The notes beneath the pieces are model-generated. The model ran no database searches and was not told the DNA's origin. It worked only from the letters and a program-made list of their open reading frames with translations. The position numbers were made by a program, and so were the translations under genes. From assembly GCF_010747475.1 (NCBI RefSeq), contig NZ_VSLZ01000001.1, positions 806,001 to 870,000 of the forward strand: a stretch of DNA of 64,000 bases, in the 5' to 3' direction. This DNA is from Halorussus sp. MSC15.2 (GTDB lineage Archaea > Halobacteriota > Halobacteria > Halobacteriales > Haladaptataceae). This document shows, in pieces, positions 12,493-25,636 of this stretch. Positions within the stretch are counted from its first letter, which is position 1. Every line of letters starts with the position of its first letter.

Positions 12493-13446
12493 TCACTCCA
12501 CAGACGACCGCTCGCCCTCCACGTCCAACTCCTCGATACCTAACTCCTCGGCCCCCAGTTCCTCGACGTTCGACTCCTCGGGCAGCGTCCCGCGGAATCG
12601 GTCGATTATCCGGCGGGCCTCCTCCAGTTCCACGCCGCCGAGTTCCCGGACCAGCGCCAGCGCGCGCTTGGCCTTCGCGCGACGCCACGACTCCTCGCGC
12701 GACTCGTAGGTCCGAATGCCTCGGAGGAAGTCCACCTTCGAGAACTCGGGCCAGTAGGGCGTGCAGAAGAAGACCGCCGCCTCGTTGCCGTTGGCGTGCC
12801 ACGGCAGGAAGTTAGAGGTGCGCTCGTCGCCGCCGGTCCGGATGATGAGGTCCACGTCGCGGACCGGACTGTCGTACAGCCGATTCTCTATCTCGGAAAC
12901 GTCGATGTCCGCGGGGTCCAACTCGTCGTCTTCGACCGCGCTCGCCACGTCGCGGGTAGCGTTGAGGAGTTCGTTCCGACCGCCGTAGGCCAGCGCGACG
13001 TTGAGGGTGAACGAGTCGTAGTCCGCAGTCCGGCCCTCGGCGTAGTCGATGGCCTCCCGGACGCGCTCGGGAAGCGCCTCCCGGTCGCCGATGGCACGGA
13101 TGCAGACCTCGCCGTCGTGGACGCGGTCGTCGTCGCCGAAGTCGTACAACTTCTCCTCCAGCAGGTCGAACAGCGCTTCGTTCTCGTGGTCGGGGCGGTC
13201 GAAGTTCTCGGTCGAGAACGCGTACAGCGTCAACTCCTCGACGCCCATGTCCTGACACCAGTTCAGCACTCGCTCTGTCGTCTGAGCACCAGCGCGGTGG
13301 CCGTCGGGCGCGTCTTCGCCCTGCTTGCTGGCGTACCGTCTGTTACCGTCTTGAATGACCGCGACGTGCGTCGGCGCGCCGGATATCTCTCGTCTGAGAA
13401 GACGTTCGTATGCGGCCTGAACTCGCCGCTGTACCCACTGGAACAT
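12493..13446 (-). CDS. uppS: Polyprenyl diphosphate synthase, catalytic cis-prenyltransferase
   Basis: A 317-residue protein with the catalytic signature HVAVIQDGNRRYA (Asp33 is the predicted Mg/pyrophosphate ligand), YAFSTENFDRP, LNVALAYGGR and RTGGDERTSNFLPW. It should condense isopentenyl diphosphate into the long polyprenyl/dolichyl carrier for N-glycosylation. Where canonical homodimeric enzymes read RERRFGG near the C-terminus, this protein reads REESWRRAKAKR, with no RxG. About 70 further residues end in a Glu-rich tail. It ends 2 bases from the convergent paralogue. Confidence 0.92.
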   Translation of the reverse strand: MFQWVQRRVQAAYERLLRREISGAPTHVAVIQDGNRRYASKQGEDAPDGHRAGAQTTERVLNWCQDMGVEELTLYAFSTENFDRPDHENEALFDLLEEKLYDFGDDDRVHDGEVCIRAIGDREALPERVREAIDYAEGRTADYDSFTLNVALAYGGRNELLNATRDVASAVEDDELDPADIDVSEIENRLYDSPVRDVDLIIRTGGDERTSNFLPWHANGNEAAVFFCTPYWPEFSKVDFLRGIRTYESREESWRRAKAKRALALVRELGGVELEEARRIIDRFRGTLPEESNVEELGAEELGIEELDVEGERSSVE

Positions 13447-13580
13447 CCGTTGTTGGGACGGACACGACCGAGAGCAATTAGCCTTTTGACCCCGAACCCT
13501 CCGGGACGCGACCTGTCGGCCCTATAGCTTCAGCTAGTTGCATACCTTTTTAAGCATGGGGCGACTTGAACCAGAACGCA

Positions 13581-13775
13581 ATGGCGAAAGGTACGGTCGA
13601 TTTCTTCAACGACACTGGCGGTTACGGTTTCATCGACACTGAGGATGCCGACGAAGACGTGTTCTTCCACATGGAAGACATCGGCGGTCCGGACCTCGAA
13701 GAGGGGCAGGAAGTCGAGTTCGAAATAGAGCAGGCGGACAAGGGTCCGCGAGCGAAGAACCTCAAACGCCTGTAA
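13581..13775 (+). CDS. cspA: Cold-shock domain protein
   Basis: A 64-residue single cold-shock domain starting [22 protein letters not shown]1 (GGYGFI) and RNP2-like (DVFFHM) motifs are intact. It binds single-stranded nucleic acid and acts as an RNA chaperone. ATG 13581 is used because the upstream in-frame TTG only adds five residues. A TTTTTAAG element about 31 bases upstream is a plausible TATA box. The protein is very acidic, as expected in a salt-in cytoplasm. Confidence 0.93.
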
Positions 13776-13877
13776 AACGTAACGCGCGAAATTGAGCTTT
13801 TATTGACGCAGACCGGATAGCGACAGCGTTATCGGCGAACCGTAGCGCGTTTAACCGGCGGACGGCTTGCTCCACAC

Positions 13878-14279
13878 ATGGACGACGCAGTCGACGAGGA
13901 CCTCTACCGTCGGACCGAGCAGTTACTCGAACCGGGCGACATCGAACTCAACGGGGCCATCGTTCGGACCGACCTCGGCAGCGACGAGGAGACCGAGATG
14001 CATCAAGCGACCGTCGATATCGGCGAGATAATCGCCGAACACGCGGGCTACGACTCGAAGGACACGTTCGTCTACTCCGGGACCGACGACACCGACTTCG
14101 CCTCGAACCAGCATCAGGGACTGACGCTCGACGACGAGTCGTTCGTCTGGGAGTGCCAGCAACTCCTCCGCGACGGCACCTTCGACGTGGTGTTCTACTA
14201 CGAGGCCAGCGCCGACCACGAGTCCATCCTCGAAGATGTGCGCGACCTCGGGTTCGACGTCGTCGGTGTCGAGGGGTGA
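13878..14279 (+). CDS. Haloarchaeal conserved hypothetical protein (DUF5778-like)
   Basis: A 133-residue soluble acidic protein, starting MDDAVDEDLYRRTEQLLEPG. I see no signal peptide, membrane segment or catalytic motif. It resembles a haloarchaea-restricted family that I recall as DUF5778, but I could not check this. It sits between the cold-shock gene and hemA on the same strand. Confidence 0.7.
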   Translation: MDDAVDEDLYRRTEQLLEPGDIELNGAIVRTDLGSDEETEMHQATVDIGEIIAEHAGYDSKDTFVYSGTDDTDFASNQHQGLTLDDESFVWECQQLLRDGTFDVVFYYEASADHESILEDVRDLGFDVVGVEG

Positions 14280-14440
14280 CCCGACACTTGCAGATTCCAG
14301 CAGAATGTGTCTCGTTTGGAAGGGTTTACGTACCGTCCGAACTTAGCTCCCGACAACAACGGTGCGATGGGTGCATTACAGGGTGAAATCATGAATATCG
14401 AACTCTCTCTCTCTGACACACGAACCGGGGGTCGATTCCC

Positions 14441-15808
14441 GTGAGTGCGGCGACGGGCGTCGTCTCGGGGATTCGTATCAGCCACGACCGCGCGAGTCTG
14501 GACGCGGTCGAAGCGGCCTGCCACCCCGACGAAGAGGCGATTCTCCAGCGACTGCTGGACGTGCCGGGCGTCCACGAGGCGTTCGTACTCCAGACGTGCA
14601 ACCGCTTCGAGGCTTACGTCGTCACCGACGCCGACGCGGCCGGACAGGCGGTATTGGACGATTTCGCGCCCGACGTGGGCGGCCACTCGGTCGTGGAGAT
14701 GGGCCACGAGCAGAGTCTCCGCCACCTGCTGCGGGTGGCGGCCGGACTCGAATCGCTCGTCCTCGGCGAGGACCAGATTCTCGGACAGATTCGAGACGCC
14801 TACACGCTGGCCCACGAGAGCGGCGCGCTCGGCCCGATGCTCGACGTGGCCGTGACCAAGGCCATCCACGTCGGCGAACGCGCCCGGACCGAGACCGACA
14901 TCAACGACGGCGCGGTGTCGGTCGGGAGCGCGGCGGTGAAACTGCTGGCCGCCGAGTCCGACCTCGAGGACGCCACCGCGCTCGTCGTCGGCGCGGGCGA
15001 GATGGGAACCATCGCCGCCCACGCGCTCGCCGACACCGATATCCAGAGGCTCTACGTCGCCAATCGGTCGTTCGACGGTGCTGTCGAGGTGACGGACGTC
15101 GTGGACCACGACGACGTCCGCGCGGTCACCCTCGACGAACTCGGCGAGACGCTCGACGCCGCAGACGTGGTGGTCTCCGCGACGGGGAGCGAGAGTCACG
15201 TCATCGACGCCGACGACTTCCACGACACGGGCGAAGTGCGGGTCGTAGACATCGCCCAACCCCGGGACGTTTCGCCCGCGGCCAACGCCGTGAACGGCGT
15301 GACCGTCCACGGGATGGCCGCGCTGGAGTCGGTCACCGACGAGACCGAGCGCCGACGCCGGGCCGCCGCCGAGTCCGTGGAGGCGATGATAGACCGGGAG
15401 TTCGACCACCTGCTGGAGAGTTACAAGCGCAAGCGCGCCGACGAGGTCATCTCGGCGATGTACGAGAGCGCCGAACGCGTCAAGGAGCGCCAGCTCTCGG
15501 AGGCGTTCTCGAAACTCGACGCCCACGGCGACCTCAACGACGACCAGCGCGAGGTCGTCTCGTCGCTGGCCGACGCGCTGGTCTCGCAACTGCTCGCGCC
15601 GCCGACGAGCAGTCTCCGGGACGCCGCCGCCGAGGACGACTGGGGGACCATCAACACGGCGCTCCAACTGTTCGACCCGGACTTCGGCGAGGACGGGGGA
15701 CCGCCGGAGTTCGTGCGCGAGCAGTTCGACGACGGCGACGTTCCCGACGAGGTGGCCGAGCAGATGCCCGACGACGTCCGGACGATGATAGCTGGCGACG
15801 ACGACTGA
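14441..15808 (+). CDS. hemA: Glutamyl-tRNA reductase
   Basis: A 455-residue protein. The catalytic cysteine is Cys53 in LQTCNRFEAY. The next block, GLESLVLGEDQILGQIRDAY, is the family signature, and the NADPH site is GAGEMGTIAAHAL. It reduces glutamyl-tRNA to glutamate-1-semialdehyde, the first step of C5 tetrapyrrole synthesis. The start is GTG 14441. In many haloarchaea a precorrin-2 dehydrogenase gene precedes hemA; here only a 17-codon open frame (14390-14443) lies upstream. Confidence 0.95.
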   Translation: MSAATGVVSGIRISHDRASLDAVEAACHPDEEAILQRLLDVPGVHEAFVLQTCNRFEAYVVTDADAAGQAVLDDFAPDVGGHSVVEMGHEQSLRHLLRVAAGLESLVLGEDQILGQIRDAYTLAHESGALGPMLDVAVTKAIHVGERARTETDINDGAVSVGSAAVKLLAAESDLEDATALVVGAGEMGTIAAHALADTDIQRLYVANRSFDGAVEVTDVVDHDDVRAVTLDELGETLDAADVVVSATGSESHVIDADDFHDTGEVRVVDIAQPRDVSPAANAVNGVTVHGMAALESVTDETERRRRAAAESVEAMIDREFDHLLESYKRKRADEVISAMYESAERVKERQLSEAFSKLDAHGDLNDDQREVVSSLADALVSQLLAPPTSSLRDAAAEDDWGTINTALQLFDPDFGEDGGPPEFVREQFDDGDVPDEVAEQMPDDVRTMIAGDDD

Positions 15809-23357: not shown

Positions 23358-23416
23358 GTCTGGAAATCGGCCGTCCGCGGGCAAAAACGTGTGGGAGTAT
23401 CCTCTCGACGGAGAAA

Positions 23417-23782
23417 TCACCGACTCTTGACGGCTCGATAGCCGAATATCACGGAGACACCGAGGAAACTGACTATACTAAGAACCATTTCGTCGGTGAG
23501 TTCGACATTCTCTACGATGGCGGCGACGACCACGAGAACGCCCGAAAGTGCGAACAATCCCCACTCCTGCGGACCGGTCAGGTGCCGTTCGATTCGGTCA
23601 CGAAACATCCAGTACACCGAAAAGGCTGCTAGTGTGATGCCGAGGGGGAGACCCCATTTGCCGGGTGTCGCCCCGACTACGACGAATAGAACTACGAAGG
23701 CGATTGCGAGTATTATTTGTAATCCGAGTCGGAGTTGCGCTAAACTGTTTCCCCTAGCGCTGTCCTCTTCAGTTGTTTTCAT
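23417..23782 (-). CDS. Small four-helix membrane protein beside the halocin-like gene
   Basis: A 121-residue protein with four hydrophobic segments and a conserved-looking FRDRIERHLTGPQEWG loop. I do not recognise the family. ATG 23782 is preferred over 23806. It lies in the AT-rich island and is transcribed divergently from the ten-cysteine Tat substrate. That position makes an immunity or export role possible but unproven. It ends 59 bases before moeA on the same strand. Confidence 0.7.
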   Translation of the reverse strand: MKTTEEDSARGNSLAQLRLGLQIILAIAFVVLFVVVGATPGKWGLPLGITLAAFSVYWMFRDRIERHLTGPQEWGLFALSGVLVVVAAIVENVELTDEMVLSIVSFLGVSVIFGYRAVKSR

Positions 23783-23966
23783 TGACGTATCTCTACTTCT
23801 CCACACTATACCATATTTCTGTCGTGCTTCAGCATTCTCGCTATTAGATACTTCATTAATATTATCATCGATTGTGGTTAAAGATTATTTTTCATCATAT
23901 AAATAGGGGCTTTCATCGTTATAGAAGCGTGAACTATGAGCAATGATAGTTAATTCATAGTCCCAA

Positions 23967-24011
23967 AATTTAATTTAATATGGTATTTAGCTCCATTTGC
24001 ACTACGGAGGT
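23967..24011 (+). promoter_or_regulatory. TATA-like element and strong Shine-Dalgarno of the halocin-like gene
   Basis: An AT-rich TTTAATTTAATA element spans about 23969-23980. A perfect GGAGGT lies at 24006-24011, six bases before ATG 24018. Most genes in this window lack a clear Shine-Dalgarno, so this gene has a leadered mRNA and its start is well fixed. Confidence 0.6.
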
Positions 24012-24017
24012 AATCAA

Positions 24018-25115
24018 ATGTCGAAGAAAGATAATGGTTCGGATGGTCTAAATCGGCGAAACATGCTCCGGAAGAGTGCTGCAGGTGCAACCGGCGGACT
24101 TCTCGGTTTGAGCCAAGCTACGGTAACGTGGGCAAAACCTACTGAGTCAGAGATAGAGCAACTGGAAAGCGAACCGAGTGTCCAAGCCGTTCTCAACAAA
24201 ATCAATCGGTCAGAACTACCAAGTGATACGGAGAAAGTCTCTGGTACACTTGGAAAAGGTGAAGGTGAAAGTAAAATAGAATTTTGGGAAGGAAGCGTTG
24301 AATATGGGACGCTCACCGTCGGCAAAGTGAGCAATCACATCAACGTCATTTTCAGTTTTGATTATGATTCGATTTCGGAAGCCCCAGAACAGTTCCGCTC
24401 TATTCCTGCGGGGACGGACCCAATCGTGACCGCTCTTGGAGACAGAGCAATCGTGAAGCGGTCAACAACTGACCGAGAAGAACAGGCGATTCGAGCAACA
24501 CTTCCCGTGACGGGAAGTGAAATGATTAGCTATACAACTTCCCTCTCCAGAGGATTCCTCGCCGAGGTTTTCACCAACATCGAAGGAGATGACGAACTGA
24601 ATCGGCGACGGTTTATGATTAGGACTACCAACGCGGGGACTCATCCAGTCTATCAAGAATCCTCTGGAGCAATCGTAGAAGCAGACCCTGCAATCCAAGC
24701 AGAGGGAATAATCGATGACGTTGCAGACCTCATCGAGGACGGAGTGAACACCGATGCGGTCGAAGGCATCAAAGGAAGTCTCGGTGTCAAACCCTGGAAG
24801 CAGATACCAGATTCGGCGAAGAAAATAGAAAATCTCGGTAAAAGTGGTGTCAAAAGTGTCGTCGCGGCATCTATCCCGATGGCCTTAGATTCCGCCGGTG
24901 CTCACTGTGGTGCCGACTGCGCGGATTGTGCCATCTCGATTAAAACCTTGGCAACTGACTGCACTAAGTGTCGTATTTTCCTTACGACCTCAGTCTCAGC
25001 AATCGGTGCTGTGTCCGCAGTTCTTCTCATTGTTTGCATGTGGAACTTCTGTAATGTTCCGCGGGCGATAAACAAGTGCGACAAATGTCTTGACTGCGCC
25101 ACCGAAAAAGTATAG
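24018..25115 (+). CDS. Halocin C8-like precursor (Tat-exported, ten-cysteine C-terminal domain)
   Basis: A 365-residue protein. It has a twin-arginine signal (LNRRNMLRKSAAGATGG, Arg13-Arg14), then a hydrophilic pro-region of about 250 residues. The last 70 residues form a domain with ten cysteines (297, 301, 304, 315, 318, 340, 345, 354, 357, 360) around one hydrophobic segment (about 320-342). The known halocin C8 precursor has the same order: Tat signal, a pro-region that acts as immunity protein, and a C-terminal peptide of 76 residues with ten cysteines. The cysteine spacing differs, so this is at best a divergent relative. Codon use and GC are far lower than in flanking genes, pointing to transfer. 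Confidence 0.72.
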   Translation: MSKKDNGSDGLNRRNMLRKSAAGATGGLLGLSQATVTWAKPTESEIEQLESEPSVQAVLNKINRSELPSDTEKVSGTLGKGEGESKIEFWEGSVEYGTLTVGKVSNHINVIFSFDYDSISEAPEQFRSIPAGTDPIVTALGDRAIVKRSTTDREEQAIRATLPVTGSEMISYTTSLSRGFLAEVFTNIEGDDELNRRRFMIRTTNAGTHPVYQESSGAIVEADPAIQAEGIIDDVADLIEDGVNTDAVEGIKGSLGVKPWKQIPDSAKKIENLGKSGVKSVVAASIPMALDSAGAHCGADCADCAISIKTLATDCTKCRIFLTTSVSAIGAVSAVLLIVCMWNFCNVPRAINKCDKCLDCATEKV

Positions 25116-25158
25116 ATAATCTCTAAATACAGCTCATACAGATTGTTTTATCGCTTCT

Positions 25159-25173
25159 TAACCTATCGGGTTA
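25159..25173. repeat. Small inverted repeat after the halocin-like gene
   Basis: TAACC-TATCG-GGTTA is a perfect five-base stem with a five-base loop, 44 bases after the stop codon. A TTTT run precedes it at about 25146-25149. It may help end transcription, but the stem is short. Confidence 0.25.
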
Positions 25174-25271
25174 TCTTGAGAACTCTTCACGCGTCTTCAA
25201 CCCGGTCAACTCTACGAGGACACGAGTAGTCGACCACACCCTTTTTCGCCCCTCCGTCCTAACACGCAAGT

Positions 25272-25627
25272 ATGTCAGCGCTTCGTGAGGCCATGCGGGA
25301 GTTGCCGGACGCGGTGTTCGCCGACCTGCTGGAGAGCGACGACGCCTACCTGCTGGTCGTCGATCTCCCGGGTGCGAACGAGGAGACGGTGGACGTGAGC
25401 GTCACCGACGGGCGACTCGAAATCGAGCGCGCCGGGAGAAGGACGTACCGATGGAGTTCTCGTACCTACAGGAGGAGCGGTCGCTGTTTCTCGACGCCGA
25501 CCTCCCGTTGCCGCCGGACGCCACCGGTGCGGGTGCGGAAGCGTCCATCGACCGGGGCGTGCTGGAACTGCGCCTACCCAAGCGCGACGCCACCCCGGAG
25601 CAGGAAATCCACATCGAGAGTCGGTGA
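25272..25627 (+). pseudogene. hsp20: Hsp20-type small heat-shock protein, frameshifted
   Basis: The first frame reads YLLVVDLPGANEETVDVSVTD up to LEIERAG. The alpha-crystallin domain then continues in another frame as REKDVPMEFSYLQEERSLFL and ends ELRLPKRDATPEQEIHIESR at the stop 25625-25627. One base is missing at about 25433-25436 in CCGGGAGAA, within a GGG run. Restored, the protein would be about 118 residues, a normal small Hsp20 chaperone. A read error is as likely as a true lesion. Confidence 0.8.
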
Positions 25628-25636
25628 CCCCGCGGG

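Follow-up and report, generated by a model that had tools for sequence, protein, structure and literature searches.

An accessory two-gene cassette of Halorussus sp. MSC15.2 that probably encodes a Tat-exported, disulfide-laddered antimicrobial hairpin and its membrane immunity protein

An AT-rich island in the genome of Halorussus sp. MSC15.2 carries two divergent genes that probably form a mobile or accessory antagonism cassette, in which a Tat-exported precursor gives rise to a disulfide-laddered antimicrobial hairpin and a membrane protein provides immunity. The island lies in a stretch of 64,000 nucleotides, here called the window. Judged from its sequence, the most likely products of the cassette are an antimicrobial peptide, secreted and stapled by disulfides, and a membrane protein that would shield the producer. 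The precursor would leave the cell by the Tat pathway, as its signal suggests, and an extracellular protease may then free the Cys-rich C-terminal part. The freed part would fold into a helical hairpin whose nested disulfides form a ladder, as suggested by paired cysteine loss among relatives and by a low-confidence model, and could then attack the membranes of related haloarchaea. In the producer's own membrane the divergent multi-TM protein would block the peptide; we read it as immunity because it is linked to the precursor genes.

The island (positions 23397-25232) lies between moeA and an hsp20-like gene. Its limits were set by aligning the junctions to the empty sites of sister genomes, together with the dip in GC, and they fall close to the 23417-25240 proposed in a sequence-only reading of the same DNA. 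That reading had described the stretch as poorer in GC than both sides, and we recovered the dip in GC (0.47-0.53 at 23.5-25.5 kb, compared with 0.65-0.72 on the flanks) and in GC3 (0.47 for the precursor gene and 0.58 for its partner, compared with 0.77 for moeA and 0.90 for ubiB). The junctions read GTGTGGGA / island / ACCACACCC. Relative to the empty allele, about 16 bp have given way to the cassette, and alignment to the empty sister sites shows no target duplication at its junctions. The window has a second, milder GC dip at 13001-14500 (GC 0.59-0.60). The hsp20-like gene beside the island (25272-25628) occupies two frames, split at about 25440, and is intact in sister genomes; the frameshift is either genuine or an artefact of sequencing.

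The cassette is accessory in sister genomes. The site is empty in 13 of the 16 sister-genus genomes covering the locus, with moeA directly adjoining the hsp20-like gene. This is the accessory AT-rich island that the sequence-only reading had expected, and not a gene universal and syntenic in relatives with ordinary GC. One sister genome (G172) carries at the same site only the small membrane protein gene, 75% identical to the window copy, without the precursor. Another (G391; L184), which shares 98% identity with the window in its UbiB protein, has an unrelated AT-rich insert there, encoding a 284-aa protein with hydrophobic ends. A third (G147; L185) apparently carries yet another insert, since no moeA was found in the 1.5 kb upstream at the corresponding site. 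Because of these different inserts, the moeA/hsp20 junction looks like an insertion-prone site, and its history agrees with gain by transfer, or with gain and partial loss. The partner persisting alone in G172 is suggestive, as this is what orphan immunity genes do. If that is true, the locus would be a clear example of orphan immunity, seen at an insertion site compared across sister genomes.

The precursor gene (24018-25115, plus strand; 365 codons, ATG start) was defined from its open reading frame, the family search and the alignment, and a Shine-Dalgarno-like GGAGGT (24006-24011, plus strand) stands 6 bases 5′ of the ATG. The divergent intergenic region (23783-24017) has a GC of 0.33, and the promoters of both genes are presumed to lie there. 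The protein opens with a Tat signal (NRRNMLRKSA...; residues 1-39, 24018-24134, the end being approximate), which matches TIGR02811 and TIGR01409 weakly, below cut-off; the Tat signal profile PF10518 was matched in seven relatives. A family-conserved pro-domain follows (about residues 40-224; 24135-24689), with two short helices and then a beta-rich domain in the AF2 model, where pLDDT is about 60-80 across most of residues 43-200. The next segment (about residues 225-289; 24690-24884) is predicted to be disordered and is, in the alignment, largely confined to the window protein plus the two relatives nearest to it. The Cys-rich core (residues 297-360; 24906-25097) is a predicted helical hairpin with a hydrophobic tip at about residues 320-339. 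AF2 confidence is low, with a mean pLDDT of 49.9 for the full length and 63.7 for the core.

The precursor has no cysteine before residue 297; all ten fall within its final 69 residues. By our own estimate, ten cysteines within 64 residues have a chance near 1e-9 at about 1% Cys. The Tat-signal protein with ten cysteines in its last 70 residues seen by the sequence-only reading is thus real, and our recount of the spacing (x3, x2, x10, x2, x21, x4, x8, x2, x2, with a tail beyond the last Cys) agrees with its figures exactly.

By sequence, the window protein belongs to a widespread haloarchaeal family of its own, which is not in Pfam, NCBIfam, PHROGs or PADLOC. When 391 haloarchaeal genomes were searched with the window protein, 33 of them, from 21 genera, contained relatives, and a profile search of the same genomes gave about 50 full-length members, leaving out many weak matches to the Tat signal alone. 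In the alignment of 26 members (the window protein and 25 relatives) the RR is invariant (26/26), and the pro-domain and the Cys-rich end are shared. The closest precursors, at 48% (G113) and 44% (G211) identity over the full length, come from Haloferax-type genomes. Family genes are lower in GC than their flanks in 48 of 53 cases. One genome (G113) holds four members with differing Cys types in a cluster of about 7 kb (L076; G113:C17:302000-310000). In Natronolimnohabitans sp. A-GB9 two divergent precursor genes stand back to back (L197, 5993-7929). Genes for M48 (HtpX-like) membrane proteases were seen by eye near three members (L079, 5971-6936; L084, 5168-6424; L092, 5847-6728) and are possible candidates for a maturation factor.

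The suggestion that the family may be new thus stands for those four collections, none of which names a family for the window protein. The 26-member alignment gave nothing credible against Pfam and NCBIfam apart from the Tat signal, and a PDB sequence search gave Tat signals and chance matches only. A metal-binding or transport domain in the precursor, or any other unrelated curated family, was therefore rejected for want of a profile match. A scan of genome collections with the single sequence returned nothing. A scan of genome collections with a degenerate Cys pattern returned ten loci: the four haloarchaeal ones all contain family members, and the six bacterial or metagenomic ones were rejected as chance matches. 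A viral origin was rejected as well, with no protein match in phage records, no Cys-pattern DNA match in IMG/VR and no PHROGs match. The 2019 mBio paper by Makarova et al. is said to expand the halocin C8 family and may already contain some of these proteins.

How the cysteines pair is suggested by the way in which they are lost. The commonest complete form in the family has twelve (c1 to c12), and the cysteines missing from reduced members were assigned blind, by spacing. Loss of a symmetric pair best explains 27 of the 31 reduced members, counted without regard to kinship between them; among the 66 pairs that could be lost at random, 6 are symmetric. The losses fall into five distinct types (c6+c7, c2+c11, c4+c9, c1+c12 and c5+c8), of which c5+c8 occurs together with loss of c2+c11. 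The window protein is of the c6+c7 type, also seen separately in L086 and L144; its innermost rung is missing, and a longer hydrophobic tip stands there instead. Symmetric paired loss is most simply read as disulfides nested like the rungs of a ladder along a helical hairpin. In the AF2 model, of low confidence (core pLDDT about 64), a long helix leads to a tip and then to a second, kinked helix, at positions that match the ladder. From the losses and this model we infer that the core is probably a helical hairpin held by a nested disulfide ladder. A PDB fold search with the same low-confidence model, at E up to 0.001, found no match.

The second gene of the cassette (23417-23782, minus strand) encodes a small multi-TM membrane protein of 121 aa with an L(S/T)xxQE motif, the predicted immunity partner. 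It has three to four hydrophobic segments by Kyte-Doolittle, in line with the divergent small membrane protein described earlier, and it aligns almost without gaps to a family of equal length and pattern in which L14, G37, L68 and Q72 are shared. No curated family in Pfam, NCBIfam, PHROGs or PADLOC matches it. In profile-profile comparison, the relatives grouped around the window's own 121-aa protein match those found beside the precursors of G113 and G211 (probability 96.5%, 117 columns), and unrelated small TM neighbours score far lower. The idea that this protein is a partner of the precursor has held up: relatives of it adjoin the two precursors most similar to that of the window or lie no more than 1.6 kb away, and the two genes are co-located in unrelated genomes (the window, G113, G211 and a Haloferax larsenii plasmid). 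In G211, two partner copies lie about 1.6 kb downstream of the precursor, beyond two intervening genes; by eye, this gene pair resembles a nucleotidyltransferase and a HEPN protein (L077, 8807-9998). In a class-wide search, all partner matches in the window's genome (G000) and in G211, and two strong matches in G113, were near family genes, and a third, weak match in G113 is beside a broken precursor copy. Seven genomes have partner relatives without a nearby precursor (G068, G331, G082, G076, G081, G138 and G282).

The pairing extends across the family. Small ORFs with two or more TM segments lie within 330 bp of 31 of 53 family genes (58%) and of 50 of 193 controls (26%; Fisher p 2e-5), a comparison with crude controls (other genes of the same loci), mechanical gene calls and related loci that are not independent. 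Many of these neighbours are directly downstream on the same strand, and the membrane proteins that adjoin family members are of several unrelated types. We read the family loci as pairs of a precursor and a putative membrane immunity protein, drawn from several unrelated immunity types.

To our knowledge, few halocins have a known gene. According to a review, most halocins have not been fully sequenced (PMC11509114). From the family come about 50 candidate precursors, a predicted disulfide order and possible immunity genes, some of them in a listed halocin producer: H. larsenii NCIM5678 is given as the producer of the 13-kDa halocin HA3 (PMC11509114). Plasmid pHl5678-1 of H. larsenii NCIM 5678 encodes WP_007542122.1, annotated as hypothetical and identical to the G113 precursor. 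It resembles the window protein in sequence (46% identical over residues 33-362), in Cys spacing and in adjoining partner relatives; it differs in being plasmid-borne, with an operon-like gene order and two partner copies, which flank it on both sides in the same orientation. One of these, of 121 aa (L187, 8204-8569), is annotated as a 1,4-dihydroxy-2-naphthoate octaprenyltransferase, most likely a misannotation. A 13-kDa C-terminal fragment of the H. larsenii precursor would start near residue 254, within the extra segment of the subfamily. A TIGR04449 halocin is encoded in this genome type as well. The strain has several candidates, and the link of WP_007542122.1 to HA3, made through the strain, is a lead only. 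On a broader and tentative reading, which we consider possible but short of likely, archaea may have a second, large class of antimicrobial hairpins with disulfide ladders, without sequence kinship to halocin C8, each paired with its own membrane immunity protein from one of several unrelated families, and including the gene for HA3.

A different ancestry would be compatible with the main mechanism. The window protein could truly belong to the halocin C8 superfamily and have drifted too far for profiles to detect, since it has the same layout of Tat signal, pro-region, Cys-rich end and hydrophobic stretch. Small multi-TM ORFs also lie within about 100 bp of 7 of 10 TIGR04449 (halocin_C8_dom) loci (L174-L183), although the two loci of halocin C8 itself or its nearest relative lack one. 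Two reduced TIGR04449 proteins were assigned by the same method: L058 loses the symmetric pair C3+C8, and L049 is best fitted by the non-symmetric loss C4+C6. The profiles speak against such kinship. The mature halocin C8 sequence, as we take it to be, is letter for letter the C-terminal end of protein L034; halocin C8 scores 61.5 bits with TIGR04449, where membership begins above 24 bits, and the window protein and its 25 relatives give no match at all. In full-length profile comparison with halocin C8 precursors the Tat signal alone aligns. Once it is removed, hhalign probability is 2.3% for the cores (4 of 40 shuffled controls score as high) and 0.2% for the pro-regions compared with HalI (2 of 40). 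The proposal of a divergent halocin of the C8 kind is therefore not supported, membership in the halocin C8 family is rejected on these results, and we consider drift from it, with a different Cys spacing besides, unlikely. The window's genome has a true TIGR04449 protein elsewhere (L050), and a halocin C8-type gene of this genome (L182; G000:C4:191504-191707) has an 83-aa, two-TM neighbour. The epimerase-linked halocin family NF040679 had no match in ten genomes, in which its control was silent too.

Other readings concern function. The peptide could be antimicrobial with its immunity in the pro-region, the membrane protein doing something else, such as export or processing. In halocin C8, immunity resides in the N-terminal part of its own precursor, HalI, and a helix-loop-helix at the HalI N-terminus is essential, going by the title of a work cited there (PMC11509114); in the AF2 model of the window protein the pro-region begins with two short helices. 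The two pro-regions share no sequence relation, however, and both the unrelated membrane proteins beside family members and the lone partner in G172 favour a separate immunity gene, which makes this account improbable. We give as little credence to a Cys-rich cell-surface protein with a role in metal binding, redox or adhesion, anchored by its hydrophobic segment. Ten cysteines, several CxxC spacings, one hydrophobic segment and the missing family name would fit such a protein, but the cysteines are lost in symmetric pairs and not in metal-site quartets, there is no relative in Pfam, PHROGs, PADLOC or PDB apart from the Tat signal, and a conflict gene would better account for the accessory spread, the low GC, the diversified copies in tandem and the pairing with membrane proteins. 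A last reading, in which the island would be AT-rich sequence of an ordinary kind and the two genes neighbours by chance, is disfavoured and very improbable: other inserts occupy the site and partner-like genes occur alone, but relatives of the partner recur with the two nearest precursors, adjoining or close by, in another haloarchaeal family and on a plasmid.

The preferred reading, a laddered hairpin paired with a membrane immunity protein, recalls several known systems. Saposin-like pore formers and alpha-hairpinins are helical, with nested disulfides (C1-Cn, C2-Cn-1); the single hairpin predicted here would have five or six rungs compared with their two or three, and its low-confidence core model has no PDB fold match. 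The halocin C8 precursor (ProC8) shares the Tat signal, the long pro-region, the C-terminal ten-Cys peptide with a hydrophobic stretch and an accessory haloarchaeal gene. It differs in Cys spacing (2-7-3-7-13-7-8-8-5 compared with 3-2-10-2-21-4-8-2-2), in ending on its last Cys where the window protein has a tail, in an unrelated pro-region sequence, and in immunity, reported within its own pro-region and here predicted for a separate membrane protein. In bacterial class II bacteriocins, the gene for a small Cys-stabilised peptide stands beside a small membrane immunity gene. The cassette is likened to these pairs by layout, with its peptide gene adjoining a predicted small membrane immunity gene; unlike them, it is archaeal, uses Tat export and has a large folded pro-domain in place of a short leader.
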